Of a stretch of 64,000 nt of DNA, positions 24,690-43,915 are shown piece by piece. Under the pieces are notes generated by a model. The model did no database searches and had not been told where the DNA came from. It worked only from the letters and a program-made list of their open reading frames with translations. Both the position numbers and the translations under genes were made by a program. Location of the stretch: contig NZ_BRCF01000002.1 of assembly GCF_023707985.1 (NCBI RefSeq), forward strand, positions 288,388 through 352,387, written 5' to 3'. Each line of letters opens with the position of its first letter. Within the stretch, counting starts at the first letter, position 1. Source of the DNA: Sporosarcina sp. NCCP-2716 (GTDB taxonomy: Bacteria; Bacillota; Bacilli; Bacillales_A; Planococcaceae).

Positions 24690-24701
24690 TAGAGGCAATT
24701 C

Positions 24702-24750
24702 AAAAAAGCTGTACCGCTGCGAGGGATTCCTCGGCGGTACAGCTTTTTTT
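24702..24750. terminator. Bidirectional terminator
   Basis: Perfect stem AAAAAGCTGTACCGC/GCGGTACAGCTTTTT with a 16-base interval that itself pairs (CGAGG with CCTCG), between the convergent MFS and P1 peptidase genes. Confidence 0.9.
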
Positions 24751-24768
24751 AGTTTGTCGGATTATGTT

Positions 24769-25854: not shown

Positions 25855-25906
25855 CGTATAGTGACCTCTCAACTATCCCATACTGTGTGAAAAAGGAGGA
25901 TCTGCA

Positions 25907-26951: not shown

Positions 26952-26983
26952 GAAAAAACCGCCCCCTATGAAAGGGACGGTCC
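26952..26983 (-). terminator. Terminator of the MFS gene at 26996
   Basis: On the minus strand ACCGTCCC pairs with GGGGCGGT (one G-U pair), followed by TTTTTT. Confidence 0.75.
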
Positions 26984-26995
26984 TGCGCTCGGGGA

Positions 26996-28255
26996 TCAGC
27001 CCCCAGCGACAGCTTTCTCGCCTTCTACGTTCGGACGGTTGTCTTCGCGGATCAAAGATGCTGAAATCGTACCGATCACGAGCAGGAAGCCTGCGAAGTA
27101 GAAGCCCATGTTGAGACTGCCTGTAACGTCAGTCAGGAAACCAGTGATGTATGGAGCCAAGATGGATCCGCACATCCCGATGAAGTTATAGACACCGAAT
27201 GATGTGGAGTATGCATTTTTCGGTGCGTTGTCAGCAACGACAGCTACAAGTACTGGGTTAGTACTGATCTTACCGAAGATACCGTAACCGATCAATGCTG
27301 CGTAAAGAACATACATATTGTCGAACAATACGATCGACACGAGTGAAATCAGTGACAATGGAAGCATGACGAGCAATACCGGACGGCGTTTACCAAGACG
27401 GTCAGCAATCCAGCTGAACAAGATGGAGCCTGGGATCGCTGCCCAAGGAACGAGTGAAGATACTGTCGCAACAGCGCTTCCTTCGATGCCGCGGGCGTGC
27501 TGCAAGTAGTACGGCATCCATGTAACAACTACGAAGAATCCGTAGATCGCACAGAAGATGGTGATATACGACATGACCAAGTTGCGGTTCTTGAACAATG
27601 CACTCAATTTCAGTTTTTCCTGATTGTCGAGCATTGCCTTTTCTTCCTTGCCTTTCGGGTTTTCCTTCACGAGCCACCACATCAGGAGACCGACGATGAC
27701 GACCGGGATCGCGACGATGTAGAACGGCGCTCTCCAGCTCATGCCAGCTTCAAGTGTATAACTTGAAAGGAAGTAACCTGCAGAAAGACCGAATGCCATC
27801 CCGCTGTTGATGATCGCGGAGCCGACAGTCAAATGTTTCGCCGGAATCGCTTCAGACGACAGTCCGTATTGAGGACCGTAGTAGAATCCTTGGAACACAC
27901 CTACCATGAGCCACATGAGTACGAAGAGAACGAAGTTCGGCATCGTACCAGCGATTGCTGCAAACAGACCGAAAAGAATAATACCTGGGACCAACACTTT
28001 CTTTTTACCGATTTTGTCACCCAAAATTCCTGATGGGATGTTCAATCCGGCGTAACCGATGAAGAATATACTGCTGATCATACCGAGCTGGCCGGCAGAC
28101 AGACTGAACTCGTTCTGAATATCATCCATGACCGGGTTCAAGATTGCGCGGGTGCCGTAAATGGCGACCCAACCTAAGAAGAATACGATAACGGCTTTGA
28201 CCCAATACGGAATCAGTTCTTTTTTCTCGCCGGTATCATGCACTTGCTTTGCCAT
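26996..28255 (-). CDS. MFS transporter of the anion:cation symporter type, co-regulated with the ureide genes
   Basis: 419 residues with twelve membrane segments and the motif GILGDKIGKKKVL in loop 2-3, as in sugar-phosphate/organic-anion ACS carriers (FFLGWVAIYGTRAILNPVMDDIQNEF, GVFQGFYYGPQYGLSSEAIPAKH). The promoter region carries a 19-bp sequence identical to one in front of fdrA, at the same distance from its -10. That makes it the best candidate for uptake of allantoate, ureidoglycolate or a related ureide, or for oxamate export. The family identity is firm; the substrate is inference from the shared box. Confidence 0.85.
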   Translation of the reverse strand: MAKQVHDTGEKKELIPYWVKAVIVFFLGWVAIYGTRAILNPVMDDIQNEFSLSAGQLGMISSIFFIGYAGLNIPSGILGDKIGKKKVLVPGIILFGLFAAIAGTMPNFVLFVLMWLMVGVFQGFYYGPQYGLSSEAIPAKHLTVGSAIINSGMAFGLSAGYFLSSYTLEAGMSWRAPFYIVAIPVVIVGLLMWWLVKENPKGKEEKAMLDNQEKLKLSALFKNRNLVMSYITIFCAIYGFFVVVTWMPYYLQHARGIEGSAVATVSSLVPWAAIPGSILFSWIADRLGKRRPVLLVMLPLSLISLVSIVLFDNMYVLYAALIGYGIFGKISTNPVLVAVVADNAPKNAYSTSFGVYNFIGMCGSILAPYITGFLTDVTGSLNMGFYFAGFLLVIGTISASLIREDNRPNVEGEKAVAGG

Positions 28256-28321: not shown

Positions 28322-28357
28322 ATCATACGGCAGACCGCATTGCAGACGAATAAAATC
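28322..28357 (-). promoter_or_regulatory. Promoter with shared 19-bp box, copy 1
   Basis: The plus strand reads ATTGCAGACGAATAAAATC at 28339-28357. On the minus strand the box is followed after 11 bp by a TATGAT -10 hexamer (28322-28327). The box covers the place where a -35 would be (TTCGTC there, a poor match), which is what an activator-dependent promoter looks like. An identical box with identical spacing lies upstream of fdrA. Confidence 0.7.
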
Positions 28358-28505
28358 AAATACGGGAACCTTGCCAAAACATTAAATTTCGACAATTACT
28401 TTTTGACCTTGCGTCCCGGCAGGACAGAATCCCATTCTCCTCTGCCTAGCTTATCCCGCTGCCCGCCTTTCATGTATGATGACGGGATATAAACGGCGGT
28501 GCCGC

Positions 28506-29219
28506 TCACTTAGGGGCTGCGACGCTCTTCAGCATATAGCCGAGACCGGGATAGGTGATGATATACTCCTCCGGTTCCTTCAGCCGCTCTTTGATCTTCC
28601 GGCGGATCCGGGCAATGCCTACCCGCAAATACTCGACGTCATCGCGGTACTGGGGACCCCACACTTCAGACAGCAGCGTTTCGTGCTGGACGACTTTATC
28701 GAGGTTGAGCGCAAGAATCTCAAGGAGTGAGAATTCCGTCTGGGTCAGCTTCAGCTCTTCCTCTTCGATCCAGATCCGCTTGCTGCCGACATCGACCTGC
28801 AGGGAGCCGGTCTCGATGACGGAAGAGGCGCCGGATGCCCCTTCCGAAAGGGCGGGCTGGCTCCTCCGTAAGACGGCGTTCACCCGTGCAAACAGTTCGT
28901 CGAGGGAGAACGGCTTCGTCAAGTAATCGTCAGCACCCAGGTTCAGGCCGTTCACTTTGTCTTTCGGGTTGCTCCGCGCGGTCAGCATGATGATCGGCGT
29001 GTGGGAGAACTTGCGCAGCTCTTCCAGTACGTAGAAACCGTCTTTCCCCGGCATCATGATGTCAAGCAGGATCAAATCTGGAGAGATGAGGTCATACTTC
29101 TCCAGCAGTTCTTCTCCGGAATCTGCAGTCACGACCTCATACCCGACCGAGCGCAAATTCGCCGAGATGAAACGTAAGATCTTCGCTTCATCATCCACCA
29201 CACATATTTTCTGCTTCAT
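28506..29219 (-). CDS. OmpR/PhoB-family response regulator
   Basis: 237 residues. The receiver domain (1-120) has the acid pocket in CVVDDE, the phospho-acceptor in DLILLDIMMPG, the conserved Thr in MLTAR and Lys in LTKPFS. The C-terminal winged helix (about 140-232) contains LTQTEFSLLEILALNLDKVV and YLRVGIARIRRKI. It begins 3 bp after the kinase stop, so it is translated with it. It is the only DNA-binding regulator I can find in the ureide block and is a candidate activator of the two box promoters. Confidence 0.92.
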   Translation of the reverse strand: MKQKICVVDDEAKILRFISANLRSVGYEVVTADSGEELLEKYDLISPDLILLDIMMPGKDGFYVLEELRKFSHTPIIMLTARSNPKDKVNGLNLGADDYLTKPFSLDELFARVNAVLRRSQPALSEGASGASSVIETGSLQVDVGSKRIWIEEEELKLTQTEFSLLEILALNLDKVVQHETLLSEVWGPQYRDDVEYLRVGIARIRRKIKERLKEPEEYIITYPGLGYMLKSVAAPK

Positions 29220-29222: not shown

Positions 29223-31844
29223 TTACGACCCCTCTCTTAACGGAAAGTAAAGTGTAAACGTACTGCCTTCCCCCGGCGTGCTCCTGACTTCGATCTTCCC
29301 TTCGTGCGCCTCCATGATCCCTTCGCAGATCGACAGGCCGAGACCCGTGCCTCCTGAGCGGCGTGTTGCTGTGACATCGACTTGGTAGAAACGGTTGAAG
29401 ATCTTCTGCAGATGTTCTCTCGAGATGCCGATGCCGTTGTCAGAGACGGCGATCGTCAGATAGTCCTCCTGCTTTTCAAGCACGATATCGATCCGCTTAT
29501 GCGCCGAGTCATTATACCGCAGGGCGTTCGTGAACAGGTTGACAAGCACCTGCTGGACACGCGTTTTGTCGGCATAGAAGAACAGATACTCCGCCGCTTT
29601 GTTGTGGAACTCGAGCACGGCATCCTCTTTCAGCGCCAGCGGCACGAGTTCGATCGATTTCTCGATGACGTGATTGGCCCTGACCATGTTGCGTTCGATA
29701 TACATCGAGCCGGACTCGATCTTCGAAATGTCCATCCAGTCATCGACGAGATGCTGGATCCGTTCGATGTCTTCGTGCACCCCTTCCAGCAGTTCATGCT
29801 GGAATTCCGCTTCCCACTCAACATCGTCGCGAAGCAGTGTCTCGACGCTTCCCCGGATGTTCGTGATCGGCGTCTTGAACTCATGGGACGTCAGGGAGAT
29901 CAGGTTGTTTTTCAGCGTGTCGATCTCTTCTTCCTTCGTGATGTCCCGGATGAGCAGGCCGAGTCCGATTTTATTATCGTCCGAAACGACGGAAAACTTA
30001 TGCAGCATGTAGAAATCCGTGTCCCCGGCGTTCGTTTTGTACTCCAGTTTCAAGTCGCTCTTGTCTTCCTCGAAGAAAGCAGTCAGTTCTTCTGCACTCA
30101 CTTCGAACAGCTCGTTGATGCGGCGGAAGACGTCGGAGAGCAGCTGCAGCGGGATGCCGGTCTCTTCCCCGTCGATGACATTGAGGAAGAATTCGTTCAC
30201 GTAGTCGATCTCGTAATTGTTGTTCAGGAGCATGATCCCTTCCGACATGCTTTCCAGCACGGCATCGAGTTCCGCGTGTTTGTTTCTGTACTGCTCGAAC
30301 AGCAGCTTGTTCTGCAGCATGATGGCGAGTGACCGCGAGAACGTCTGAAGGAACGACTGCTCTTTCGCTTCGATCGTCTGCCCTTCCTGAAGATCGATGA
30401 TCAGATACCCGTTCGGCAGGCCGTCGAGGACGATCGGCTCCATATGATGGTTCGATCCCTGGACGTGCTGCTCCAAGTATTGCTGGAGGCTTTCATCCGT
30501 ATAGATCTCTTCCTTTGTGACAGCGAGCTCACGGAACCAGATGTGCACGGAAAACGGAACGGTCGGTTCGATGTTTTTCAAGCACAGCTGGATGAAGTGC
30601 GAGACATCCATTTTCGACGAAACCGGGGTGATGAGCTGGTTCACGGCCTGCAGTTCGGCATTGCGCCGTTCGAGGTCGGCTGTACGTTCCTGCACCCGCC
30701 CTTCGAGCCGTGTGTTCAGTTCGATCAGCTGGTCGCGGTTCGTGCCGATCTCATACAGCATGTCATTGAAGTGGGACAGCAGATCGGTCATTTCCTGCGG
30801 CCCTTCGATCCGTTCCGCAATTTTGACAGGCTGATTCGTCTTATAGCTGGCGGAATAGCGCTTGATGGTGTCCAGCAGGTTGCGGATCGTCCGTTCCAGC
30901 CGGGTCGTCAGGAAAAGGCTCGCCAGGACGACAAAAAGGGCTGTCAGCGGGATGAACCACAAAATGGTGCCTGCCGCTTCCCGGAGCGGTTTGGTGATAT
31001 GTGTGGACGGATTGGCGATCCAGACCGTCCAGCCGAGATCGGGCGTCTTCGCATACGTGATGAACTCTTTCTCCCGGCCTTCTTCTTGAATCGACAAACT
31101 CTTGACAGTGTCTCCGTCATTCGCATTGATAGACTGGACGATTTTGGAGTCCGTCATGTTGACCATGTCGGTCCTCGTGTCGACGTCCGGATGGACAATG
31201 ACATTGTTATCCTGATCCAGCAGGACCGCATAGCTCGCTTCGCCCGAGATACGGGTCGAAATATACTTTTCCAGTACATGCAGATCGATGGCACCGAGAA
31301 TGTACCCCTGCATCTTCCCTTCCGTGTTGAATATCGGGGACACGATGGCGACGAGAAGGGTGTCCGTCCCACCTCTTCCGTGGAAGACGTGGGAGACGAC
31401 CTGCTGATTCGTATCGAGCAGTTCCTTGTAGTAGGACCGGTCACTGAAGTCCAGATGCTCCCGGGTCACCCCGTCCGTATAGACGGACGGGTAGAACACG
31501 AGCGACTTCCCATTCTTGTCTCCGACGTACAAATTCACGAATCCGGGGTAGTTGACTTTGATGTCCCTCAGACTTTCTTCGATCTTTTGCGTGTCTCCCT
31601 GCTCGAGGTAAGGGGCGATTGCGGCGGACATCGTCTCGATGACGCGGCCATGCTGTTCCATATAGCTGTCAATGTTGTCTTCCAGGAACTCCGTCACTTT
31701 CGTCTGGCTTTCCTTGTTGTCCTTAATGAGGGAAGAGAGCTGGAAAAACTGGAAAATCCCAAGAGAAATGATGGTTGCCAGGCCGATTGTCAAAAACGAA
31801 TAGATGAGTTCTTTACGAAATGAACGGGATTTTCTTTTTTTCAT
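29223..31844 (-). CDS. Sensor histidine kinase: dCache, HAMP, GAF-like, PAS, HisKA, HATPase
   Basis: 873 residues. Order: membrane segment at about 13-35; extracellular double-Cache sensor to about 290 (YPGFVNLYVGDKNG, SDRSYYKELLDTNQQVVSHVF, GWTVWIANPS); second membrane segment at about 295-315; HAMP; a coiled-coil and GAF-like part (about 400-530); PAS (about 540-660); HisKA with the phospho-acceptor in LTSHEFKTPITNIRG; HATPase with NALRYN, DNGIGI and GGTGLGLS. dCache domains often bind small amino acids, carboxylates or purine-related compounds outside the cell. A terminator separates it from the carbamate kinase gene, so it has its own promoter or depends on read-through. Confidence 0.92.
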   Translation of the reverse strand: MKKRKSRSFRKELIYSFLTIGLATIISLGIFQFFQLSSLIKDNKESQTKVTEFLEDNIDSYMEQHGRVIETMSAAIAPYLEQGDTQKIEESLRDIKVNYPGFVNLYVGDKNGKSLVFYPSVYTDGVTREHLDFSDRSYYKELLDTNQQVVSHVFHGRGGTDTLLVAIVSPIFNTEGKMQGYILGAIDLHVLEKYISTRISGEASYAVLLDQDNNVIVHPDVDTRTDMVNMTDSKIVQSINANDGDTVKSLSIQEEGREKEFITYAKTPDLGWTVWIANPSTHITKPLREAAGTILWFIPLTALFVVLASLFLTTRLERTIRNLLDTIKRYSASYKTNQPVKIAERIEGPQEMTDLLSHFNDMLYEIGTNRDQLIELNTRLEGRVQERTADLERRNAELQAVNQLITPVSSKMDVSHFIQLCLKNIEPTVPFSVHIWFRELAVTKEEIYTDESLQQYLEQHVQGSNHHMEPIVLDGLPNGYLIIDLQEGQTIEAKEQSFLQTFSRSLAIMLQNKLLFEQYRNKHAELDAVLESMSEGIMLLNNNYEIDYVNEFFLNVIDGEETGIPLQLLSDVFRRINELFEVSAEELTAFFEEDKSDLKLEYKTNAGDTDFYMLHKFSVVSDDNKIGLGLLIRDITKEEEIDTLKNNLISLTSHEFKTPITNIRGSVETLLRDDVEWEAEFQHELLEGVHEDIERIQHLVDDWMDISKIESGSMYIERNMVRANHVIEKSIELVPLALKEDAVLEFHNKAAEYLFFYADKTRVQQVLVNLFTNALRYNDSAHKRIDIVLEKQEDYLTIAVSDNGIGISREHLQKIFNRFYQVDVTATRRSGGTGLGLSICEGIMEAHEGKIEVRSTPGEGSTFTLYFPLREGS

Positions 31845-31960: not shown

Positions 31961-32899
31961 TTATTTTGTAATCTGCGTGCCTGCTTTTCCTTCGACAGCC
32001 AAATCTGCCTGTCCGAGTGAACAGATGATCGCACGGCCGCCCATTTCAGCGAACTTCATGGCCGCTTCCATTTTAGGTCCCATGCTGCCTGCAGAGAATT
32101 GACCTTCGTCTGCATATTTCTTCGCTTCTTCGAGCTTGATGGATCCGAGTGCTTTCTGATCCGGTTTGCCATAGTTCACGTAAACGTTATCGACGTCCGT
32201 CAAGATCATCAGGACGTCCGCTTTCGCTTCTTCCGCCAGACGGAAGGCGCTGCGGTCTTTGTCGATGACTGCTTCGATGCCTGTCAGGCTGCCGTCTTCT
32301 TCGCGCACGACAGGAATCCCGCCGCCGCCCGAAGCGATGACGATGACTTCGTTGTCTGTCAGCATCTTAATAGTCTCGGAGCTGAGGATCGACTTCGGAT
32401 TCGGTGAAGCGACGACACGTCTCCAGCCGCGGCCAGCATCTTCTTTGACGTCCCAGCCTTTTTCCTTGGCGAGTTCTTTCGCTTCTTCTTCCGAGTAGAA
32501 TACGCCGATAGGCTTGGAAGGGTCTTCGAAAGCAGGGTCGTTGCGGTCCACTTCTGTCTGTGTAAGCATACTGACGACTTGGCGGTCCTGGCCGAGTTTC
32601 GTCAGTTCGTTCTTCAGTGTCTGTTCCATCATGTAACCGATGAACCCTTGGGATTCCGCGCTGCACACATCCAGCGGTAGGGCAGGGACGACATCTTTCG
32701 CTTCCTCGTTCTGACGGAGGATGTTGCCGACTTGCGGGCCGTTGCCGTGTGTCACGATAACTGTATGCCCGTTCGCTACGATCTTGGAGATGATTTCCGT
32801 GCTGATCCGTACATTTTCACGCTGGTTTTCATATGTCGCTTCCTGTTTAGGCTGAAGGATGGCATTTCCCCCAAGTGCGATTACTACTTTTTCTGACAT
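31961..32899 (-). CDS. arcC: Carbamate kinase (ArcC/AllK)
   Basis: 312 residues. It converts carbamoyl phosphate and ADP to ATP, CO2 and ammonia. Motifs: VVIALGGNAI at the start, VTHGNGPQVG, DVCSAESQGFIGY, ASGGGGIPVV, AVIDKDRSAFRLAEE and FSAGSMGPKMEAA. AAGGAGGAAACAGGA precedes the ATG; the start overlaps the allH stop by 16 bp. No arginine deiminase genes are present. As the last gene of the fdrA-allG-allH cluster it fits the oxamate route, where carbamoyl phosphate comes from oxalurate. Confidence 0.93.
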   Translation of the reverse strand: MSEKVVIALGGNAILQPKQEATYENQRENVRISTEIISKIVANGHTVIVTHGNGPQVGNILRQNEEAKDVVPALPLDVCSAESQGFIGYMMEQTLKNELTKLGQDRQVVSMLTQTEVDRNDPAFEDPSKPIGVFYSEEEAKELAKEKGWDVKEDAGRGWRRVVASPNPKSILSSETIKMLTDNEVIVIASGGGGIPVVREEDGSLTGIEAVIDKDRSAFRLAEEAKADVLMILTDVDNVYVNYGKPDQKALGSIKLEEAKKYADEGQFSAGSMGPKMEAAMKFAEMGGRAIICSLGQADLAVEGKAGTQITK

Positions 32900-33816
32900 T
32901 CCTGTTTCCTCCTTAGCGCTAATAATCCAAGCAACATGCCGAAAACTGTATCGATACCAGAACTGTGTCCCATATCGATCAGTTCCGACAGCAGTGGTTT
33001 CAGCATATAAATATCCGTCTTCTCTGTCAATGCGGAAGCCGCCCTGACGACTGTCGAGGTGAAATCCCCGTCCAGTGCGTACAGCAGATACTCCCGTCCG
33101 ATATCCGTCGTCAGCTGTTCGATCTCCACGAGACTGCGGAGGACACTGCGCATTTCTCCCGACAGGATATCCGCTGCTTTGTCGATCGACAGAAGGCCGA
33201 CAAGGTGGTCGTCTCCTGACGGGGTGAGTCCCTGTCCCCGTCCTAAAAAGAACCGGAGGACCGCTTCGATGCCGGTTTCGTCAGCTGACTGCACGGCTGC
33301 AATCAGTTCCCGTATGCGCTGATCGGTCTTCCCGGCAGGCGGGGCGTCCTCCAGATAGGCAGACAAAAACTCCCCGACTTCGATGCCGAGCCCGGTCGTC
33401 ATCGGCTGGGCCAGAAGGATGGACGCGAGCATCGTCAAGTTGTCCCTCAATACATCCGCCGGAACCGGTCGTCCGGTGAGCGGCCATTGAAAGGGAGTTG
33501 ACTCTGCAAGCGTTACTGCCCATCCTGTGCTGCCGAAAATGAGTTTCCGGGATTCAGGCTTCCAAGTGACCCGGTCGTCCTGATCGATCGTTTGCAAAAG
33601 TCCATACAAGTCACCGCCGGAGAGATGGACACCGAAGGGCAGCTGGCCGTTCTTCGCAGTTCCTATGAAGAACAGCCAGTCCCCCATCCGGATATTGGCT
33701 CCGTTCTGGAAGACGCTGTGCACAGTGCCCTCCGTATGCGCAGAAAGCAGCAGAGGAATGCGCTGTTCGTATCCCTCTGCCTGCAAAACGGATCCTGTTC
33801 CTGACGGCCGGTTCAT
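32884..33816 (-). CDS. allH: AllH-like DUF2877 subunit of oxamate carbamoyltransferase
   Basis: 310 residues from the ATG that overlaps the allG stop (TGATG at 33814-33818). A GTG 51 bp upstream lies inside allG. Family motifs: FFLGRGQGLTPSGDDHLVGLL and MGHSSGIDTVFGMLLGL. DUF2877 proteins occur with FdrA and DUF1116 proteins in allantoin clusters, and the three are reported to form the long-missing oxamate carbamoyltransferase (AllFGH) in Escherichia coli. The individual role of this subunit is not visible from sequence. Confidence 0.85.
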   Translation of the reverse strand: MNRPSGTGSVLQAEGYEQRIPLLLSAHTEGTVHSVFQNGANIRMGDWLFFIGTAKNGQLPFGVHLSGGDLYGLLQTIDQDDRVTWKPESRKLIFGSTGWAVTLAESTPFQWPLTGRPVPADVLRDNLTMLASILLAQPMTTGLGIEVGEFLSAYLEDAPPAGKTDQRIRELIAAVQSADETGIEAVLRFFLGRGQGLTPSGDDHLVGLLSIDKAADILSGEMRSVLRSLVEIEQLTTDIGREYLLYALDGDFTSTVVRAASALTEKTDIYMLKPLLSELIDMGHSSGIDTVFGMLLGLLALRRKQECQKK

Positions 33817-35078
33817 CAGATCAAGCCAAGCTTCACGGCATAGGCTTCCAATGCTTTTTCGAAACACTCTTTCGGTGCACGGACAGTTCCTGCGCCCACT
33901 TGTCCCAATCCTGCTTTTTTGTTGGCGATTCCTGTGTTGATGACCGGTTCGATGCCTGTTTCGACGACTTTACGGGCGTCGATGCCGAGGCATGCCCCTT
34001 GGAAGTCCCATGTAGGGATCGTGAAGTTGCTGTTATGGGAAATACAGATTTCCGCCATCTCATTGCTTGTTGCCAGTGCGTCGTCGAAGCCGCCCGCACC
34101 TACAAAACGGGTAACACCTGGTGCTGCGATCATTGCCATACCGCCGACACCGAATGTTTCCGTGATTGCGCTGTCACCGATGTCCGGGTTAGCGTCTTCT
34201 TGAGAGAAGCCGGTGAAGAACAGACCTTGCGGCGTGTTGACAGGTGCAGTGAACCACTCGTCGCCCATTCCGCTGATGCGGATCCCGAAGTCTTTACCGT
34301 TCCGGCACATTGCTGTTACGACAGTACCGTCCTGAATCTGACGCGCAGCATCCATGACCGCTTTACTAGTCGCCATCATGACGTTCAGGAAGAACTGGTC
34401 CGTATCCGCAAGGAACTGGATGACGTCCTTGCGTTCTTTTTCGTCCATATCCAACTGGACGATGTACGGACTGATCTCTTTCAGGAAAATGAGGGACGCC
34501 GCGATGTTACGCTGGTGGAACTCATCGCCCATCGTGATCGCTTTAGCGATCATGACGTTCAGGTTCAAGCCGTCTTCCGTCAATTTCAATGCGTTGGCGA
34601 TTGTTGGTCCGAGGACGTTCTGCATCCATTTCAGACGGTCGATGACTTCTTGGGAGTTCGCACCGAAACGCAGTACTTTCCCGATTCCTTCGTTCATGAT
34701 GCAGTATGCTTCGTTGCCGTCTGTGCGGTTTTCTACGACAAATACCGGCATGTTGGCAGACGTGATCCCGCCCATCGGCCCGACAGCATTCACATGGTGG
34801 CAGGGGATGAATGTCACTTCTCCGCCAGCGAGCTGCTTTTCAGCTTCTTCCGGAGAAGATGCCCAGCCTTCGTAAAGGGATGCACCGATACAAGAACCTT
34901 GCATCGGGCCTGTCATGTCTTCCCACTTGATAGGAGGACCTGCATGCAGCAGGACTTTGCCATCGTTCAGTTCTTTGATCTTGTCTTTTGCAGGGACAAC
35001 GTCCACCAGGAATGGTGCCGATCCCGTGATTTTGTCGATGACTGCTTTGTTCGCTTCATCCATTGACTTGTAATTCAT
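33816..35078 (-). CDS. allG: AllG-like DUF1116 subunit of oxamate carbamoyltransferase
   Basis: 420 residues, full length for DUF1116 (YlbE of Escherichia coli). Conserved stretches: LLHAGPPIKWEDMTGPMQGSC-type opening at about residue 43, VTFIPCHHVNAVGPMGGIT, LRFGANSQEVIDRLKWM, GDEFHQRNIAAS, ETFGVGGMAMIAAPGVTRFVG and QGACLGIDARKVVETGI. It follows fdrA after a 103-bp gap that holds a hairpin. Works with FdrA and AllH on oxalurate. Confidence 0.88.
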   Translation of the reverse strand: MNYKSMDEANKAVIDKITGSAPFLVDVVPAKDKIKELNDGKVLLHAGPPIKWEDMTGPMQGSCIGASLYEGWASSPEEAEKQLAGGEVTFIPCHHVNAVGPMGGITSANMPVFVVENRTDGNEAYCIMNEGIGKVLRFGANSQEVIDRLKWMQNVLGPTIANALKLTEDGLNLNVMIAKAITMGDEFHQRNIAASLIFLKEISPYIVQLDMDEKERKDVIQFLADTDQFFLNVMMATSKAVMDAARQIQDGTVVTAMCRNGKDFGIRISGMGDEWFTAPVNTPQGLFFTGFSQEDANPDIGDSAITETFGVGGMAMIAAPGVTRFVGAGGFDDALATSNEMAEICISHNSNFTIPTWDFQGACLGIDARKVVETGIEPVINTGIANKKAGLGQVGAGTVRAPKECFEKALEAYAVKLGLI

Positions 35079-35130
35079 AACCGTTCCACCTCATTCATCG
35101 TATTTACAGATGTCTCCATCTGCATGGAGA

Positions 35131-35160
35131 AGGTCCAGTCCGGAAAACGGAACCGGACCT
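35131..35160 (-). other. Intercistronic hairpin between fdrA and allG
   Basis: In the minus-strand RNA an 11-bp stem (two G-U pairs) with an 8-base loop. No U run follows, so it is not a normal terminator. It may set mRNA processing or relative expression of FdrA and AllG. Confidence 0.45.
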
Positions 35161-35181
35161 CACATTCACTTGACGCGGGCA

Positions 35182-36930
35182 TTACTTCAGCAAGCTGAGG
35201 ATTTTCGCCATGCGGGCATTCCCGCCGGCAACCGGACGCCAGTCGTACTGGACGAACTGTGTTCCTGTGTCTTCCAATGCTTCCGTGAAGCCTTTCAAGC
35301 CGACGTTGATGACACGCGGGCGTTCCGATACGAGAGATGCAATGTCGTCAGATACGGAAAGGTCGAATTTCTTGTCAGACTTTCCGCCTTCCACGTGTTT
35401 CTTCTCGTTATCTTCAACGTGCAGGCCGACAATGTTAAGTGCTGTGCGGACGGCTTCGTTGTTTGTTTCTTTGACGATGACACCGGCTTCTTTCAGCTCT
35501 TTGACATGGCCGTCGTAGCTTTGCGGATCATTCTTCGTACCGCAGACAGTTGCCACGACATGGAGTGTGCGGCCGTCTTCTTCCGCTGCAGCCACCGCCT
35601 TCTTAATGGAAGGGAGCAGTGCGCTTGCCATGTCGTCGTGCGAACCGTAGCCGAGTACGAAGTCGAGCAGGATGACCGCTGTCGATGCATCTGCACCGGC
35701 CTGTTCGATGAATTTCGAGCGGGTTTCCGGATCGATCATCGGGTGCGGCTTGCCTTGTGTATATTTATCGTCACCGAGGTCGACGATTTCGTGACCTTCG
35801 TGTTTCAGGACGTACCCTTCTTCGTTCTTGATATGTGTGCCGAGGCCGAGAGCGTCCGAAATGAGGACTGCCGCTTCTGATGCGAGCGTACCGCCTGAAT
35901 AGAGACCTTTCAGTGTCTTCTGGCCGTCTTTCAAGTTCGTGTTCTCCACTGTGAAGTCACCTGAGTTGTAATCCGGCTTCACTTCGTTGCCGCGTGCCAG
36001 GTCCACTGCGATATGGGCAGTTTCAGCAAGCGTATACGCCTGGTAGACGTTGCCGACGTATTCAGTCGGTTTTTCACCGAGGAATACGGCTACAACCGGC
36101 TTCGAGAGGCTCTGGAGCAATTCCATCACTTCGTTCCGCACATGCTCTGCAGGCGGCTTCGAGATGATCGTGATGATTTCCGTCTGGCTGTGGTTCTCGA
36201 GCGCACGGATGCTGTCCATCATCGTGATCGCACCGATCGGATCCTTCAGGTCGCGTCCGCCTGTACCGATGGCGTGGCTGACCCCTTCACCCAGATGGTC
36301 GATGATCGTCGATACTTCCTGGATCCCTGTACCGGATGCACCGACAAGACCGATGCGCCCTTTGCTGACGACGTTCGCGAACGCGAATGGCACGCCGTCC
36401 AGAATTCCTGTTCCGCAGTCCGGCCCCATGACGAGCAGACCTTTTTCGTGCGCTTTCTTTTTCAGGCGGAGTTCGTCTTCGACTGATACGTTATCACTGA
36501 ACATGAACACATGAAGACCGCGGTCCAATGCCTTGTCCGCTTCGTCTGCTGCATATTGTCCAGGTACGGAGATCATCGCAACGTTTGCATTCGGCAGTGC
36601 GTCGACTGCTTTGTCCCATGTACGGACAGTTTCGAATCCTTGTTTCTTGTTGCTGATCGACTGGTCCTTCAAGTACTGATCGACTTTTTCGAGCACTTTG
36701 TCCACCATGCCAGCGTCGTCCGTATCCATGACAATCGCCATGTCGTTCGATTCCGCTGCTTCCAGCTCATCAGTGTGGAGACCGGCATCCTTGAAGATGT
36801 CTTTGTTCGCTGGTGTAGCCATCATGATCTGCACTTTGTTGAGACCTTCCATCGTCGATACCGAGTTCGTCAGCAGCATCAGGTTGATGGAGTCTTGGTA
36901 CGAGTTCTTCTTGATAATCGTATGAAGCAC
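35182..36930 (-). CDS. fdrA: FdrA/AllF, acyl-CoA-synthetase-like subunit of oxamate carbamoyltransferase
   Basis: 582 residues from the GTG at 36930 (AGGGGTG 6 bp upstream), giving the usual family start HTIIKKNSYQDSINLMLLTN. Residues about 35-130 carry MMATPANKDIFKDAGL. A succinyl-CoA-synthetase-alpha-like nucleotide/CoA-binding part follows: VMGPDCGTGILDG, GLVGASGTGIQEVS and GVSHAIGTGGRDL. The second half contains GLYSGGTLASEA, KPHPMIDPETRS and LDFVLGYGSHDDMA. FdrA acts with the DUF1116 and DUF2877 proteins in phosphorolysis of oxalurate to oxamate and carbamoyl phosphate. First gene of the fdrA-allG-allH-arcC operon, under the shared box promoter. Confidence 0.9.
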   Translation of the reverse strand: MLHTIIKKNSYQDSINLMLLTNSVSTMEGLNKVQIMMATPANKDIFKDAGLHTDELEAAESNDMAIVMDTDDAGMVDKVLEKVDQYLKDQSISNKKQGFETVRTWDKAVDALPNANVAMISVPGQYAADEADKALDRGLHVFMFSDNVSVEDELRLKKKAHEKGLLVMGPDCGTGILDGVPFAFANVVSKGRIGLVGASGTGIQEVSTIIDHLGEGVSHAIGTGGRDLKDPIGAITMMDSIRALENHSQTEIITIISKPPAEHVRNEVMELLQSLSKPVVAVFLGEKPTEYVGNVYQAYTLAETAHIAVDLARGNEVKPDYNSGDFTVENTNLKDGQKTLKGLYSGGTLASEAAVLISDALGLGTHIKNEEGYVLKHEGHEIVDLGDDKYTQGKPHPMIDPETRSKFIEQAGADASTAVILLDFVLGYGSHDDMASALLPSIKKAVAAAEEDGRTLHVVATVCGTKNDPQSYDGHVKELKEAGVIVKETNNEAVRTALNIVGLHVEDNEKKHVEGGKSDKKFDLSVSDDIASLVSERPRVINVGLKGFTEALEDTGTQFVQYDWRPVAGGNARMAKILSLLK

Positions 36931-37042
36931 AAAAATCACCCCTAAAGTAAATTTTTAAAATCAGCGCACCTACGTTAGAATGTGATTCCCTAAAAACCAA
37001 TCACAAAACTGTACGACAGCTGGTTTTATTATATCCATAACC

Positions 37043-37078
37043 ATTGTACTGTAACGCGTATTGCAGACGAATAAAATC
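37043..37078 (-). promoter_or_regulatory. Promoter with shared 19-bp box, copy 2
   Basis: ATTGCAGACGAATAAAATC (plus strand, 37060-37078) is followed on the minus strand after exactly 11 bp by a TACAAT -10 (37043-37048), about 110 bp before fdrA. The same box and spacing are found at 28322-28357. Flanking CGGGA also recurs, with slightly different spacing. Confidence 0.7.
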
Positions 37079-37226
37079 CGGGAGCCGAACATTACAAAAA
37101 CGTAAAAGATTGAATGGATTGCTGTATTCCTGCCGGTTCGTGTCGTAACATGGAGAGGAACTTACCGAAGAAGCAATGTAAAATGCACGTTAATTTGAAA
37201 GAACGAGTTGGAAAAGAGGATGCAGT

Positions 37227-38102
37227 ATGGCTGGAACATTTGTATACCGCGAAGCGGATGGATGCAGCATCGGAGCGGCCCTCCATCCGGCTTCGGCTCC
37301 GAAGGCTCCGCTGCTCGTGTATATCCACGGCGGCGGTCTGATCTGGGGGACGAAAGAAGACATGAACAAGCAGCAGATCGCCCGCTATAACGAAGCGGGT
37401 TTCAATGTGCTGTCCGTTGACTACCGGCTTGCGCCAGAGACGAAACTGCCGGGTATCCGGGAAGACATCGGGGAGTTGTTCAAATGGGTGAAAGGGGAAG
37501 CGGCCGCGCAGTTCGACTATGACACGGAACGCGTGGCTGCAGTCGGCGGCTCGGCAGGCGGGTATTTGGCTCTGCTCGCGGGCACGTTCGCCGTCAGACC
37601 GGATGCAATCGTGTCCTTCTATGGATACGGACAAGTGACCGGTGACTGGTACCGCAAGCCGAGCCCTCACTTTACGGGTATGCCGGCTGTTCCGAAACTG
37701 CTCGCTGATCAGCTCGTGAAACCATCTGCGATCGCCGCCGCGCCGATCCAGCAGCGATATGCGATCTACCTATATTGCCGCCAGTCCGGTACGTGGCTGG
37801 ACTGGGTCGCAGGTGAGGAACTCGCTGGGGATGCAGCGGAACTCGGCAGCTATGCCCCTGTGCAGCTGGCCGATGCACAGTACCCCGCCACCCTCCTCAT
37901 CCACGGGGATGCAGATGAAGATGTGCCGTATAGTGAATCACTTGCCATGAAAGAAAAGCTGGACGCGCTCGGTGTGTACAATGAGCTGCTGACCATCCCG
38001 CGAGGACAGCACAACTTTGACGCGGATATGGACGACCCGGATTCTGTCCGTGCTGTCGAGAGAACGATTCAATTCCTGAAACAACGCTTTGCCATGAAGT
38101 GA
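37227..38102 (+). CDS. Alpha/beta hydrolase (HSL/esterase type), next to allD
   Basis: 291 residues; GAGG 7 bp before the ATG. The oxyanion loop is VYIHGGGLIWG, the nucleophile elbow VGGSAGGYLALL, the acid lies in LIHGDADEDVPY and the histidine in GQHNFDADM, so the catalytic triad is complete. No signal peptide. It is divergent from fdrA and lies 36 bp upstream of allD, so probably cotranscribed with it. The position suggests hydrolysis of an ester or amide in the ureide route, but the family does not define the substrate. Confidence 0.8.
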   Translation: MAGTFVYREADGCSIGAALHPASAPKAPLLVYIHGGGLIWGTKEDMNKQQIARYNEAGFNVLSVDYRLAPETKLPGIREDIGELFKWVKGEAAAQFDYDTERVAAVGGSAGGYLALLAGTFAVRPDAIVSFYGYGQVTGDWYRKPSPHFTGMPAVPKLLADQLVKPSAIAAAPIQQRYAIYLYCRQSGTWLDWVAGEELAGDAAELGSYAPVQLADAQYPATLLIHGDADEDVPYSESLAMKEKLDALGVYNELLTIPRGQHNFDADMDDPDSVRAVERTIQFLKQRFAMK

Positions 38103-38138
38103 ACGATCCGGCAGCTGATGCCAGAAGGAGTGTAGACA

Positions 38139-39188
38139 ATGATAGTGATGTATGAAGAATTGAAAGAACTGATGGCCCGTAAACTGGAGAAAGCCGGGCT
38201 CCAGCCGTCACACGCCGAAATCGTCGCGGACGTGCTGGCGCATGCCGACGCACGCGGCATCCACTCGCACGGCGCAATGCGGACGGAGTATTACGCGGAA
38301 CGCATCGCGAAAGGCGGTATCACGGTGGATCCGGACTTCAAATTCACGAAAACGACGCCGGGGACCGCGGTGCTCGATGCGGATAACGGTGCGGGACATG
38401 TGGCGGCGAAAGAAGCGATGGAGCATGCGATCGGCATGGCACGCGAAAACGGGACAGCCGTTGTCGGTATCCGCCGTATGAGCCACAGCGGTGCGATGTC
38501 GTATTTCGTCCAGCAGGCAGCGGAAGCCGGGATGATCGGCATCTCGCTCTGTCAATCAGATCCGATGGTCGTCCCGTTCGGCGGAGCGGAGCCCTATTTC
38601 GGTACGAATCCGCTTGCTTTCGCAGCTCCAGGCAAAGGGGATGACAAAATCATCTTCGACATGGCGACGAGCGTCCAGGCTTGGGGAAAGATCCTGCATG
38701 CGCGCTCGAAAGGCGAATCGATCCCCGACACATGGGCGGTCGACGCAGACGGCGTGCCGACGACCGATCCGTTCAAAGTGACCGGCCTGCTGCCGATCGC
38801 CGGTCCGAAAGGCTACGGCCTCATGATGATGGTCGATATCCTGTCAGGCGTCCTGCTCGGCCTGCCGTTCGGCAAGCACGTGTCGTCCATGTATCATGAC
38901 CTGACAGCCGGCCGTGAACTCGGGCAGCTGCATATCGTCATCGACCCGGGCGCCTTCACTAGTGCTGACCTGTTCCGACAAAATATATCCGGGATGATGA
39001 AGGAATTGAACGAAGTCAAACCGGCTCCCGGGTTCGACCAAGTGCTCTACCCGGGGCAGAACACGACGCTGCAGGAACAGGAATCGATGAAAAACGGCAT
39101 CGAGATCGTCGATGATATCCTTGCCTATCTCCGCAGCGATACCGTCCACAACAACCAGTATGATCATAAAGATCCGTTCGCAAAGTGA
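38139..39188 (+). CDS. allD: Ureidoglycolate dehydrogenase (AllD, LDH2/MDH2 family)
   Basis: 349 residues, the same length as Escherichia coli AllD. It oxidises ureidoglycolate to oxalurate with NAD+. Motifs: HADARGIHSHGAMRTEYYAERI, NGTAVVGIRRMSHSGAMSYFVQQ, FGTNPLAFAAPG, IIFDMATSVQAWGKI and GPKGYGLMMMVDILSGVL. AGAAGGAG precedes the ATG. Malate or lactate dehydrogenases of the same family are possible, but the neighbouring fdrA-allGH-arcC set makes AllD the best reading. Ends at a strong terminator. Confidence 0.88.
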   Translation: MIVMYEELKELMARKLEKAGLQPSHAEIVADVLAHADARGIHSHGAMRTEYYAERIAKGGITVDPDFKFTKTTPGTAVLDADNGAGHVAAKEAMEHAIGMARENGTAVVGIRRMSHSGAMSYFVQQAAEAGMIGISLCQSDPMVVPFGGAEPYFGTNPLAFAAPGKGDDKIIFDMATSVQAWGKILHARSKGESIPDTWAVDADGVPTTDPFKVTGLLPIAGPKGYGLMMMVDILSGVLLGLPFGKHVSSMYHDLTAGRELGQLHIVIDPGAFTSADLFRQNISGMMKELNEVKPAPGFDQVLYPGQNTTLQEQESMKNGIEIVDDILAYLRSDTVHNNQYDHKDPFAK

Positions 39189-39207
39189 GTTCATACAGAA
39201 TATAACG

Positions 39208-39242
39208 AAACCGGTCAGCATACGTGCGCTGACCGGTTTTTT
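39208..39242 (+). terminator. Terminator after allD
   Basis: AAACCGGTCAGC/GCTGACCGGTTT stem, 8-base loop, T run. It can also act on the convergent allC-like gene, 28 bp away. Confidence 0.88.
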
Positions 39243-39270
39243 CATGGGATCCTATTGAGTTCGCCGGTCT

Positions 39271-40503
39271 TCAGCAGACAACCGCCTGTTTCAGCAGCAG
39301 GTCGCGCAGCACTTCGGCGCCTGTCAACAGCTGTTCCATGGACGTATATTCTGCCGGGTTGTGGCTCAGACCGTCTTTCGACGGGACGAAGATCATGCAA
39401 GCCGGACAGAAGCGAGCCATGTTCATCGTGTCGTGTCCGGCGCCGCTCGCCATTTCCAGCCACGTAATTCCACGTTCCTCACAGACGGCTTTCAATTCCT
39501 CGACGAGATCCTCATCCATCTGTACAGGCTCCTCGCTGGAGATTTCATCCATCCAGATGTCCAGTCCGCGTGCTTCTGCAATCCGGCTGACCGCCTGCTC
39601 GAGGGCAGTGACAACCCGCTGCCGGGATTCCGTGTCGGTTCCTCGGATATCGACGTCAAGCTCCGCAGCACTCGGCACGACGTTCATGGCGCCGGGCTGT
39701 ATTGAGAACACACCGACCGTACCGACCGTACCATATTCCAGTTCAGCCAAGGCGGCCTGTTCGACGGCCAGCGCGATTTCCGCACCGCCGAGCAGGGCGT
39801 CATGGCGGTAGTCCATCGGCGTCGTGCCGGAGTGATCCGCCGTGCCGCCAACGTGGACGTGATACCGTGCCGGAGCCGCGATGGCCGATACGACTCCTAC
39901 CGCCGTCCCCTGCTTTTCGAGGACGGGGCCCTGTTCAATGTGGAGCTCGACGAACGCTTTGAATTCGTCCTGGAACCGCATCGCCAAGTGGACTTCCTCC
40001 AAGTTCAGGCCATTGTCTTCGAATGCCTGCATGAGCGTCACGCCGTTCTTGTCGGTCAGCGAGCGGGTATATGCCGGGTCGAGCCGGCCGGACATCGCTT
40101 TGCTGCCGAGGGTCGACGCGCCGAAGCGGGCGGATTCCTCGCAGGCGAAGATGATGACTTCGATCGGATGACGGGTCTCGATCCCTTCCTCCTGAAGCGA
40201 ACGCATGACTTCGAGGGCGGCAAGGACACCCGCCGTCCCGTCGAATTCCCCTGCTGCGTAGACAGAGTCGATGTGGGAACCGGTGGCGACGACGGGCAGT
40301 TCGTCCTGCTTTCCGTCACGCCGGGCGATCACATTGCCCGCATAGTCGGTCCGTACAGTCATGCCGATCTGTTCGAACTGCCGGATCATATGCTGACGGG
40401 CTCTGCGCTCCGTTTCCGTATAGGCGAGCCGGTTGATGCCTTCCCCTTTGTCTGTGAATGCACCGAGTTCTTTAAATGACTGACGCAGCCGATCGAGCTT
40501 CAT
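39271..40503 (-). CDS. allC: Allantoate/ureidoglycolate-type amidohydrolase (AllC-like, M20 hydantoinase/carbamoylase family)
   Basis: 410 residues; GGAAGGGGA before the ATG. Metal-site motifs: VATGSHIDSV, GEFDGTAGVLAALEV, IIFACEESARFG, HIEQGPVLE, the dimer-domain motif GGTADHSGTTPMDYRHDAL and the late His in KDGLSHNPAEYTS. Such enzymes hydrolyse N-carbamoyl groups: allantoate, ureidoglycine, ureidoglycolate, N-carbamoyl-L-amino acids or beta-ureidopropionate. Only context points to AllC. It follows the CynX-like transporter gene by 54 bp on the same strand and is convergent with allD. Confidence 0.8.
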   Translation of the reverse strand: MKLDRLRQSFKELGAFTDKGEGINRLAYTETERRARQHMIRQFEQIGMTVRTDYAGNVIARRDGKQDELPVVATGSHIDSVYAAGEFDGTAGVLAALEVMRSLQEEGIETRHPIEVIIFACEESARFGASTLGSKAMSGRLDPAYTRSLTDKNGVTLMQAFEDNGLNLEEVHLAMRFQDEFKAFVELHIEQGPVLEKQGTAVGVVSAIAAPARYHVHVGGTADHSGTTPMDYRHDALLGGAEIALAVEQAALAELEYGTVGTVGVFSIQPGAMNVVPSAAELDVDIRGTDTESRQRVVTALEQAVSRIAEARGLDIWMDEISSEEPVQMDEDLVEELKAVCEERGITWLEMASGAGHDTMNMARFCPACMIFVPSKDGLSHNPAEYTSMEQLLTGAEVLRDLLLKQAVVC

Positions 40504-40557
40504 GGCGATTCCCCTTCCCTGTCCTGTTAGTATGGATTCATTGGCAAACGTTCATTT

Positions 40558-41790
40558 TCAGGCTTCATCGGTGAACGGCTCGCTGACGTATTTGTCGCGT
40601 CCGGCCCCGATGCCGGCGATTGTCATCACGACACAGACGAAGACGAGGACAGCGAGCGGCACAGTCCAGCTGCCGGTCATGTCGTAGATCAGGCCAATCG
40701 CCAAAGGACCGGTCGCTGCCAGCAGATAGCCGACTGATTGGGCCATGCCCGACAGCTGCCCAGCTTGGCGGCCGTCTCTCGACCGCATGCCTAGAAGTGC
40801 GAGGGACAGACTGATGGTGGCCCCTGACGCCAGTCCGATCAGCATGCTGGACCCGACCAGGAAGGCGGAAGAGCCTCCGATTAGCAGGCCTGCATAGCCG
40901 AGAGCATACATGAGTCCCGCCGCCCCGGCAATCCCAGACTGGTTGCGGAACTTCTCCGCAAGCAGCGGTGCGACGAATGTCGACGGGATGCTGACCATCT
41001 GTGCAACCGACAGCGTCCAGCCGGCAGCGGACGGGGAGAACCCGGCGTCGATCAGGATCTGGGGCAGCCACGAGACCAGCGTGTAGAACCCGAACGACTG
41101 CAGTCCCATGAACAGCGTCACCTGCCAGGCGAGCAGCGAACCGAACAACCCTTTCCGTTTGGCAGCGACGAACACTTTCATCTCGTCTTCAGGCGCCGGC
41201 TGCTCTTTCTCCATGACGATGATCCAAAGTACCGCACCACCGGCCGACAGCAGCACCCATGAGCTGAGGGAGAGTTCCCATCCGAGACCGGCACCGGTCG
41301 CAAGCGGGATCGACACACCCGATGCAGCCGCTGCAAATACACACATCGCCGTCGAATAGATGCTCGTCATCCGTCCGACTTTGCGAGGGAATTTCTCTTT
41401 CAGGAACGCCGGGAGAAGCACGTTCATCAGCGCGATGCCGACCCCAATCAGCGCTGTACCGATGAACAGCAGCGGCATATAGGGCACCGAGCGCAGGATG
41501 ATGCCGGCTGTCAGGAAGAACAGCCCCGACAGGATCATCCTCATGTTGCCGTATTTATTGCCGAAGCGGGCAGCGACAGTGGACATCGCTGCGAATGCGA
41601 TGAGCGGCAGGCTCGTGATCATTCCGGCGCTCCAGTTGGACAGTCCGAGTTCGTCGCGGATCGTTCCGAGCAGCGGTCCGACCGACGTGATCGCCGGCCG
41701 TAAGTTGAAACCGATAACAATGATGGCAATGAGCAAAAGCGTCCGTTCTGCCGAAGATGGACGTTCTGTCTTTGTCGTGCTTGTATTCAT
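40558..41790 (-). CDS. CynX/NimT-family MFS transporter
   Basis: 410 residues from ATG 41790, which has GAGGAGGACAG upstream. Twelve membrane segments; the start IIVIGFNLRPAITSVGPLLGTIRDELGLS is the signature of the cyanate-permease-like (CynX/NimT/YeaN) branch of MFS. It is cotranscribed with the AllC-like gene and so is a candidate carrier of a ureide or carbamoyl compound. An imperfect inverted repeat (TTCAACAG, 9 bp, CTGTTCAA; one mismatch) lies about 65 bp upstream and could be an operator. Confidence 0.83.
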   Translation of the reverse strand: MNTSTTKTERPSSAERTLLLIAIIVIGFNLRPAITSVGPLLGTIRDELGLSNWSAGMITSLPLIAFAAMSTVAARFGNKYGNMRMILSGLFFLTAGIILRSVPYMPLLFIGTALIGVGIALMNVLLPAFLKEKFPRKVGRMTSIYSTAMCVFAAAASGVSIPLATGAGLGWELSLSSWVLLSAGGAVLWIIVMEKEQPAPEDEMKVFVAAKRKGLFGSLLAWQVTLFMGLQSFGFYTLVSWLPQILIDAGFSPSAAGWTLSVAQMVSIPSTFVAPLLAEKFRNQSGIAGAAGLMYALGYAGLLIGGSSAFLVGSSMLIGLASGATISLSLALLGMRSRDGRQAGQLSGMAQSVGYLLAATGPLAIGLIYDMTGSWTVPLAVLVFVCVVMTIAGIGAGRDKYVSEPFTDEA

Positions 41791-41908
41791 AAGAACTGTC
41801 CTCCTCACCTTTTGTCTCAGTTGCTGAGCAGCCGTCTGACTGCACGTTCAACAGGATATGACTCTGTTCAATTTTCTGCCATAGATTGAGTGAAGTCAAG
41901 GACAGCAG

Positions 41909-43473: not shown

Positions 43474-43914
43474 TTGTCCAATCAAGTGGATAACTTATTC
43501 CGCGACTCGGAGTCTGCGAACGCACAGGCGATCGAACTGATCGGCACGTATGATCATCCATTGCTCGTATTGCTGAAGCAGACGCTGACAGACCAGCAGT
43601 CCGCACTCCGCACCCTCGTCTCGGAAACGGAAGGACAGGATCACCCGCCCATTGCCTCGTTCAAGAATGCCTGCACCCATGTCTATCATGCAAACGAGGT
43701 CTCCATGCCGTTCTACGAATCATGGGAGCGTGCTGTCACGTGGATGCCCGACCCCTCCCAAGCCATACAGGAGAAGCTCGGACCGCTGATGAAGAGCATG
43801 CATGGAAACCTGCAGGAAGCAGCACAACTGCTGGAATCCGCGTACGGCTACATGGCTGTCAAATATGTCATTCCGTCATTTTACTTACCCGCAGTACAAG
43901 AAGGAGGCGCATAA
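43474..43914 (+). CDS. Unknown helical protein, probable partner of the molybdopterin oxidoreductase
   Basis: 146 residues from a TTG start with AAAGGAGG 6-7 bp upstream. Mostly amphipathic helix (DSESANAQAIELIGTYD, LLKQTLTDQQSALRTLV, IQEKLGPLMKSMHGNLQEA), with a single cysteine (C67) and no signal peptide or membrane segment. It ends 1 bp before the ATG of the molybdoenzyme gene, so the two are surely coupled. Dedicated chaperones of molybdoenzymes are small helical proteins encoded next to them, and this could be one, but I see no NarJ/TorD signature. Confidence 0.7.
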   Translation: MSNQVDNLFRDSESANAQAIELIGTYDHPLLVLLKQTLTDQQSALRTLVSETEGQDHPPIASFKNACTHVYHANEVSMPFYESWERAVTWMPDPSQAIQEKLGPLMKSMHGNLQEAAQLLESAYGYMAVKYVIPSFYLPAVQEGGA

Positions 43915-43915
43915 C

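Follow-up and report, generated by a model that had tools for sequence, protein, structure and literature searches.

By what route could a bacterium feed the oxamate-forming branch of ureide breakdown when the enzymes that should precede it are not recognised in its genome? The question is raised by a 64,000-nucleotide stretch of DNA from Sporosarcina sp. NCCP-2716 (the window; the genome assembly is 92% complete), in which genes for the three subunits of an oxamic transcarbamylase and for a carbamate kinase (fdrA, allG, allH and arcC) are divergent from genes for an alpha/beta hydrolase (ABH) and for the ureidoglycolate dehydrogenase AllD. Judged from its best AllG relative in the species collection, that of S. 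koreensis (95%), around which the gene order is alike, the host is close to Sporosarcina. The answer we favour, with a probability of about two in three, is that these genes belong to a sensor-transporter-transcarbamylase cassette that scavenges exogenous oxalurate or ureidoglycolate.

The oxamate-branch genes

All three subunits of oxamic transcarbamylase are encoded together on the minus strand, each over its family cut-off: FdrA (AllF) at 35182..36930 (NF004760, 737 bits, cut-off 433), AllG at 33816..35078 (PF06545, 337 bits) and AllH at 32884..33867 (PF11392, 86 bits). The same gene string continues on that strand into arcC (allK, 31961..32899), whose product passes the equivalog cut-off for carbamate kinase (TIGR00746, 428 bits, cut-off 358) and is predicted to work in the catabolic direction. 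By the ends of their open reading frames (ORFs), arcC and allH overlap by 16 bp and allH and allG by 52 bp. The start of fdrA is probably a GTG at 36930, which is preceded by a conserved AGGGGTGAT in the aligned 5' ends; the longest frame begins at 36939.

Identity to the Escherichia coli K-12 proteins is 43% for FdrA, 63% for AllG, 31% for AllH and 46% for ArcC. AllG has a single match across the host genome, and its ortholog in E. coli is AllG (YlbE) and not YahG, to which it is 44% identical; in the AllG tree the two sides are split at 100/100 on long branches. YahG groups with five distant AllG-like proteins across the long branch from the window's AllG, and YlbE lies on the window's side, although its exact place there is unsure because its row is long. 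By sequence, then, the gene set is that of the oxamate-forming branch: AllD, AllFGH and carbamate kinase.

Much of this had been claimed in the original prediction, made from the window's sequence. Its eight named genes are all open frames at their coordinates, its fdrA-allG-allH-arcC set passes the family models, and the fdrA operon on the minus strand is indeed divergent from the hydrolase gene and allD on the plus strand. It described the set as proposed for oxamate carbamoyltransferase; the set is that one, but its status has changed, since the complex of FdrA, YlbE and YlbF was shown experimentally in E. coli in 2024 to be oxamic transcarbamylase (AllFGH, EC 2.1.3.5), according to the available text of that report (PMC11326118). 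The statement that Bacillus subtilis does without this branch agrees with the absence of AllG from 14 control genomes other than E. coli, B. subtilis included. Its suggestion that the organism may draw ATP from the phosphorolysis of ureides fits most naturally with an oxamate-branch set that has no match over cut-off for the upstream steps.

AllD and the upstream allantoin steps

The allD gene (38139..39188, plus strand) lies 36 bp behind the ABH gene, with which it is probably co-transcribed. Its product scores 594 bits against TIGR03175 (cut-off 496), is 66% identical to AllD of E. coli K-12, and shares with it 14 of 14 published residues, nine of them mutated and five more being cofactor residues, as described in PMC3527362. 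All 81 other AllD-like proteins from the loci compared below keep the same 14.

The window contains neither allB (allantoinase) nor allE (ureidoglycine aminohydrolase), as had been pointed out, and a search of the rest of the genome brought neither over its cut-off. The best match to the allantoinase model scores 240 bits (cut-off 358) and is taken to be pyrC because it is flanked by pyrB- and pyrK-like genes; the AllE model matches nothing better than a fragment of 80 columns that scores 24 bits (cut-off 200). A complete allantoin degradation pathway, with AllB and AllE both in the genome, was thus not found, and at 92% completeness the absence of the two is likely, not proven.

For comparison, 312 AllG relatives were found in one scan and the best 80 loci retained, a choice that skews the sample toward close relatives; with the window these make 81 loci (numbered L; genomes are numbered G). 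Simple rules sorted them into 41 of type A, which hold an AllE homologue (protein cluster F5, represented in the scans by one member), 25 of type B, window included, which hold a histidine kinase and neither AllE nor cluster F15, and 15 others; the label D was given to five loci with distant AllG-like genes. Genome-wide enzyme searches covered 27 genomes, each picked for having AllG, and brought AllE over its cut-off in 9, AllD in 21 and AllB in 9 (in G010 by less than 1 bit). The ten Sporosarcina type B genomes among them (G000-G009; the genome of L019 was left out) all have AllD over cut-off, and none has AllE or AllB. In five of 24 type B genomes (G016, G018, G019, G020 and G025) AllD, AllE and AllB are all below cut-off, with an AllD-family match of 277 bits in G020 and AllB-model matches of 350 bits in G018 and 332 bits in G020. 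The transcarbamylase substrate in these five is therefore probably not made by AllD, and probably comes from outside or by another route.

Sensor, regulator and carrier

The unit listed in the original prediction was correct in its genes and stopped short in its extent, because a kinase, a regulator, a carrier and two operators, partly below position 31961, also belong to it. The sensor histidine kinase (29223..31844, minus strand) consists of a dCache_1 domain, a PAS-like domain (PAS_9, at its cut-off), HisKA and HATPase. Next to it is a response regulator of the OmpR/PhoB type (28506..29219, minus strand), which is kept beside the kinase in L011-L032, and beyond that a carrier of the major facilitator superfamily (MFS; 26996..28255, minus strand; Pfam MFS_1), distantly like galactonate and phosphoglycerate carriers. 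In most type B loci the carrier gene is kept after the kinase-regulator pair, and its product would be an importer of the ureide anion.

Six residues of the sensor (D135, R136, Y138, Y139, G156 and R157) are invariant across 25 kinases, that of the window included, and the structure predicted for the sensor domain has a mean predicted local distance difference test score (pLDDT) of 88. Among solved structures its best sequence match is KinD of B. subtilis (E 3e-10), whose entries include, by their titles, a pyruvate complex and an R131A mutant; the mutated residue aligns to the invariant R136. Oxamate is similar in shape to pyruvate. KinD has been counted among the carboxylic-acid-binding dCache domains in the passages available from one survey (PMC8694187).

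A direct-repeat operator

Alignment of 18 divergent fdrA/hydrolase spacers, from the window and 17 other loci, yields a direct repeat, TTTTAYGTTTTTGTAATGT-N11-ATTTTATTCGTCTGYAATG (19+11+19 bp), which could be sought in whole genomes as TTTWAHDTTTTTGYAATG-N12-WTTTTATTCGWHTGYAAT with up to 4 mismatches; sites at the carrier gene played no part in this consensus. The window has two copies, both on the minus strand: one before fdrA (37059..37107), agreeing with the consensus at 36 of 38 positions, and one 83 bp upstream of the carrier gene (28338..28386), agreeing at 32 of 38. A candidate -10 box follows each at 10 nt past the operator on the same strand, TACAAT for the fdrA operon (37043..37048, with a second candidate, TATAAT, just downstream) and TATGAT for the carrier gene (28322..28327). 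The response regulator presumably binds at these repeats.

At a threshold of 29 or more of 38 positions, all 25 type B loci have the operator and none of the 56 others does; nine of the 25 (L021, L022, L023, L024, L025, L027, L032, L039 and L089) stood outside the consensus set. By script it was placed before fdrA in 22 of the 25, to which L029 is added, and before the carrier gene in 21, to which L039 is added, a short ORF call intervening in both additions. L039 and L089 have a single site between the regulator gene and the carrier gene, with fdrA next after the carrier. Automatic ORF starts are sometimes too early (L016, L023 and L032), which distorts operator-to-gene distances; in L016 the stretch upstream of fdrA was shortened in this way, and a full scan recovered its site. 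Twenty permuted consensi gave no match in the window and L011-L032. For 300 stretches of 450 bases drawn at random from these loci the mean score was 20.5, with two stretches, which may hold true sites, at 28 and 32.

Weaker sites, scoring 26-28 and with the same 11-nt spacer, precede fdrA in L053, L056, L062 and L082. The regulators of these four loci are 51-56% identical to that of the window, and since the variant sites accompany diverged regulators, the operator tracks the regulator. As an observation in its own right, these variant operators are a possible case of co-evolution between a regulator and its site.

Type B loci as a recurrent cassette

Describing the pathway as partly incomplete, as was done at the outset, is apt in so far as AllB and AllE have no match over cut-off, but the locus is not just an incomplete pathway: type B is a cassette, with kinase, regulator, carrier and operator, that recurs in many Bacillales, and at least three genomes carry a fuller allantoin-type cluster as well. 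By record titles, the three genomes with both an A and a B copy are those of L028/L036, L025/L061 and L032/L055. Type A loci mostly hold PucR, an M20 enzyme presumed to be AllC, AllE, AllD, FdrA, AllG, AllH and ArcC; among the 25 loci of type B, 12 have AllD, that of the window being one of them.

The AllG tree has 77 rows (40 A, 24 B, 6 other, 5 D and 2 from E. coli), AllG frames outside 350-520 aa or labelled otherwise, among them that of the type B locus L031, having been left out. Twenty-two of the 24 type B rows make up one starred group (98/86) that adjoins type A rows, and the type A label undergoes six changes on the tree, at least five of them forced by starred branches. With a midpoint root, one reading is that type B was derived from a type A cluster whose upstream enzymes were swapped for a sensor and a carrier.

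The alpha/beta hydrolase

The original prediction had called the hydrolase just before allD unexplained. That label needs qualifying: by its co-inheritance with AllG in genome draws, it is a recurrent partner of the transcarbamylase genes. ABH (37227..38102, plus strand) matches BD-FAE/Abhydrolase_3, has a model with a mean pLDDT of 95.8, and has its HGGG, GxSxG, Asp and His set intact. The HGGG motif, S109, D230 and H262 are invariant, and so are R177, Y181, R185, Q186 and W190 in 37 ABH copies, the other 36 of which are 24-73% identical to that of the window.

Of the 27 genomes picked for AllG, 26 have an ABH match at 1e-15. An order-wide draw of 150 genomes has AllG in 27 and ABH (at 1e-50) in 17, all 17 of them AllG-positive, against 0 of 123 AllG-negative genomes (Fisher p 8e-16, which ignores relatedness); the ten AllG-positive genomes without ABH are all of one genus. 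Of 200 genomes in a class-wide draw, 18 have AllG and nine have ABH (at 1e-25). Seven of these nine are AllG-positive (Fisher p 5e-7, likewise ignoring relatedness), and the match in G183 contains an internal stop codon. The other two of the nine, G253 and G325, have ABH without an AllG match, in surroundings with no visible link. The ABH thresholds thus differ between the draws, which also share genomes, at least G000 and G041. Co-inheritance of this kind speaks against a random esterase, a view tempered by G253, G325 and the one-genus gap, and ABH, inherited together with AllG, probably has a role in the pathway and is a candidate enzyme for the oxamate branch.

Context gives a hint of what ABH acts on. 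The ABH label was assigned in 17 of 25 type B loci, in 10 of 41 of type A and in 11 of the 15 others, and because the gene occurs both in AllE-bearing type A clusters and in genomes without AllD over cut-off (those of L029, L030 and L031), its substrate probably lies at or after oxalurate. ABH genes are also found beside yah-like FdrA/AllG clusters (L125, L129-L132), and these contexts may point to a more general substrate. Elsewhere an ABH gene adjoins an M20 enzyme gene (L125, L127), permease-like and cytosine-deaminase-like genes (L126), or genes for a pair of AllB homologues together with a carrier similar, by eye, to the NCS1-type one of L129 (L134). The yah-like clusters of L125 and L129-L132 are second FdrA/AllG clusters whose AllG-like proteins group with E. 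coli YahG; where scanned, they hold ankyrin-TPR proteins (L125, L131), an NCS1 allantoin-type carrier with a deaminase (L129) and TRZ/ATZ-like amidohydrolases (L125).

Structure comparison returns 3h04 and 2qru, both proteins of unknown function, and then general esterases, so the fold names no substrate. Pfam and fold alike class ABH as an alpha/beta hydrolase, unlike HpxW, which we take to have an Ntn fold, and any activity common to the two would be convergent. HpxW is an oxamate amidohydrolase known from Klebsiella, and YwrD has been suggested for B. subtilis, according to the text available from PMC5270733.

Proposed route and alternative explanations

In the scavenging cassette that we favour, the dCache histidine kinase would sense a ureide acid outside the cell, most probably oxalurate and in this host (S)-ureidoglycolate as well, and the response regulator would bind the operators before fdrA and the carrier gene and activate both. 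The MFS carrier would take up the substrate, AllD would convert ureidoglycolate to oxalurate, and the FdrA-AllG-AllH complex would split oxalurate, which arises in purine breakdown, by phosphorolysis into oxamate and carbamoyl phosphate, from which, with ADP, carbamate kinase would yield ATP, ammonia and CO2. The divergent ABH would probably act on the product, oxamate, or else on oxalurate or a cyclic precursor. A bolder version is tentative and rather doubtful: that the kinase, as a KinD-like carboxylate dCache sensor, detects extracellular oxalurate or oxamate and that ABH is a new enzyme of the oxamate branch. If so, ABH would be an oxamate amidohydrolase, or would open parabanate or cleave oxalurate, and would resolve the dead end at oxamate or widen the input to products of non-enzymatic urate oxidation.

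Several points weigh against the scavenging cassette. Its substrate, ligand and operator binding are all predicted. Among the dCache matches from Foldseek, receptors for amino acids, uric acid and pyruvate stand close together at 12-19% identity, so the candidate ligands are mixed, and the carrier is far under both family cut-offs that it touched (TIGR00893, 154 bits, cut-off 395). The operator was counted in AllG loci, and 16 of the 25 type B loci supplied the consensus, which makes the scores of those 16 circular in part; in L023 and L025 the carrier is present without a carrier-gene site at threshold, L026 has no carrier within its stretch, and L039 and L089 are placed outside the main type B group in the tree. 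With the genome 92% complete, allB and allE may also be present and have been missed, and four sister genomes (G002, G003, G008 and G009) have an amidohydrolase at 344-349 bits, near the AllB cut-off of 358, of which there is none in the host genome.

These last two points would suit an ordinary allantoin pathway that is partly lost or unassembled, with AllB and AllE in the missing 8% or replaced by unrecognised enzymes, and with the M20 enzyme encoded beyond allD (39271..40503, minus strand) as allantoate amidohydrolase; the M20 protein does pass a broad 'allantoate amidohydrolase' subfamily model (478 vs 399 bits). Such a pathway seems improbable, in view of the 0 of 10 Sporosarcina type B genomes with AllE or AllB over cut-off and of the two-component system and operator, which mark a separate group of clusters. 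Moreover, the M20 protein fails the AllC equivalog (TIGR03176, 289 vs 598 bits), which led us to reject it as AllC, and its best PDB matches favour an L-carbamoylase (291 bits) and a plant ureidoglycolate hydrolase (280 bits) over E. coli AllC (225 bits). We also regard it as unlikely that the type B complex works on a different N-carbamoyl acid, as yah-like paralogues may, while AllD and the hydrolase feed something else. The 63% identity of AllG to the characterised E. coli subunit, and 81% to AllGs from clusters that include AllE (L036 and L038, for example), argue against this, as does the presence in 12 of 25 type B loci of an AllD that keeps all 14 published residues; in its favour are the five of 24 type B genomes with AllD below cut-off, the FdrA/AllG paralogues that group with YahG and occur in other contexts, and the low identity (31%) of AllH to its E. 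coli counterpart.

Relation to known systems

The closest characterised counterpart is AllFGH with AllK of E. coli (L137), which has the four genes in the same order with allD adjoining and divergent. There, however, allC and allE lie beside allD, and the window has no allC, allE or allB; conversely, neither a two-component system nor an ABH is annotated in the 12-kb E. coli stretch. Regulation in E. coli is ascribed to ArcA and AllS in the text available from PMC12535856. A second E. coli cluster, yahDEFGHIJ (L138), holds a paralogous set of FdrA, AllG, AllH and carbamate kinase, but lies across the long AllG branch and comes with an ankyrin protein and an amidohydrolase; no ABH-type gene is annotated in either the all or the yah stretch. 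Type A clusters of the Bacillales have homologous AllD and transcarbamylase genes, and differ in having AllE and, mostly, PucR in place of the window's kinase and regulator; in none of the 41 does the operator reach the threshold (L056 and L062 have variant sites at 27-28).

The nearest parallel in gene content comes from nitrifier metagenome-assembled genomes, for which allFGHK without upstream purine genes was reported in 2025 and read as possible use of the purine products of others, or cross-feeding (PMC12625717). This module resembles the window in having oxalurate genes without the upstream pathway, but belongs to other phyla and has biuret and triuret neighbours, and no comparable sensor, operator or alpha/beta hydrolase is described in the available part of that report. 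In the part available from the CanOE study of 2012, these E. coli genes were pointed to, with doubts about fdrA, and oxamate is called a dead end in E. coli metabolism (PMC3364942); the same study cites a 1965 paper that, by its title, concerns parabanic acid induction of the enzyme in a streptococcus. No oxalurate sensor was recognised in the searched literature, which lies outside most subscription journals, nor was a two-component system, operator or alpha/beta hydrolase accompanying these genes in Bacillales.

Since the chemistry and the scavenging in nitrifiers are already in print, what is new is the regulated variant, with its sensor, carrier and operator. Because the cassette is compact and brings its own operator and carrier, the fate of oxamate and the sensing of oxalurate can be tested with few genes, and the conserved ABH offers a definite candidate for a step to which no gene has been assigned.

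Neighbouring genes and other observations

Between the convergent allD and M20 genes lies a hairpin (39208..39239) with a 13-pair stem scored on the minus strand; a T run is present on the plus strand too, so it may end both transcripts. Another hairpin (26955-26984) was found 3' of the carrier gene in the terminator scan, which gave 25 terminator-like sites against 13.8 in shuffles. The M20 enzyme is 36% identical to E. coli AllC and is best described as an accessory carbamoylase- or ureidoglycolate-hydrolase-like protein, a label that its gene received in 8 of the 10 type B loci from Sporosarcina. Its possible roles are hydrolysis of ureidoglycolate, for which it would compete with AllD, and action on some other carbamoyl acid. 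Beyond it is a gene for a CynX-like carrier (40558-41808, minus strand), which fails its family model (TIGR00896, 365 bits, cut-off 406) and was dismissed as a core member, being labelled in L011 and L016 alone among 80 loci. The '-like' in the earlier description of an AllC-like hydrolase and a CynX-like carrier behind allD was therefore well chosen, both proteins missing their cut-offs.

A permease-like family, F14 (L088:2853-4241, L126:10441-11802), is encoded next to a cytosine-deaminase-like gene in L126 and in 8 of the 80 loci; the member from L088, the sole one scanned, matches nothing in Pfam at 1e-5 or in NCBIfam at 1e-20. A formate-dehydrogenase-like gene and an MFS gene at 23409 were considered as an oxalate route, and no link was found (no genome-wide search for oxalate genes was made). 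Elsewhere in the window, positions 10000-25872 hold genes for peptide use, namely oligopeptide ATP-binding cassette transporter parts, a pyroglutamyl peptidase, the D-aminopeptidase DppA and an S58 peptidase. At 43802-46342 (plus strand) a formate-dehydrogenase/nitrate-reductase-like molybdopterin enzyme carries a LysM domain close to the C-terminus, at residues 785-828, a fusion that to our knowledge is unusual for this enzyme class.

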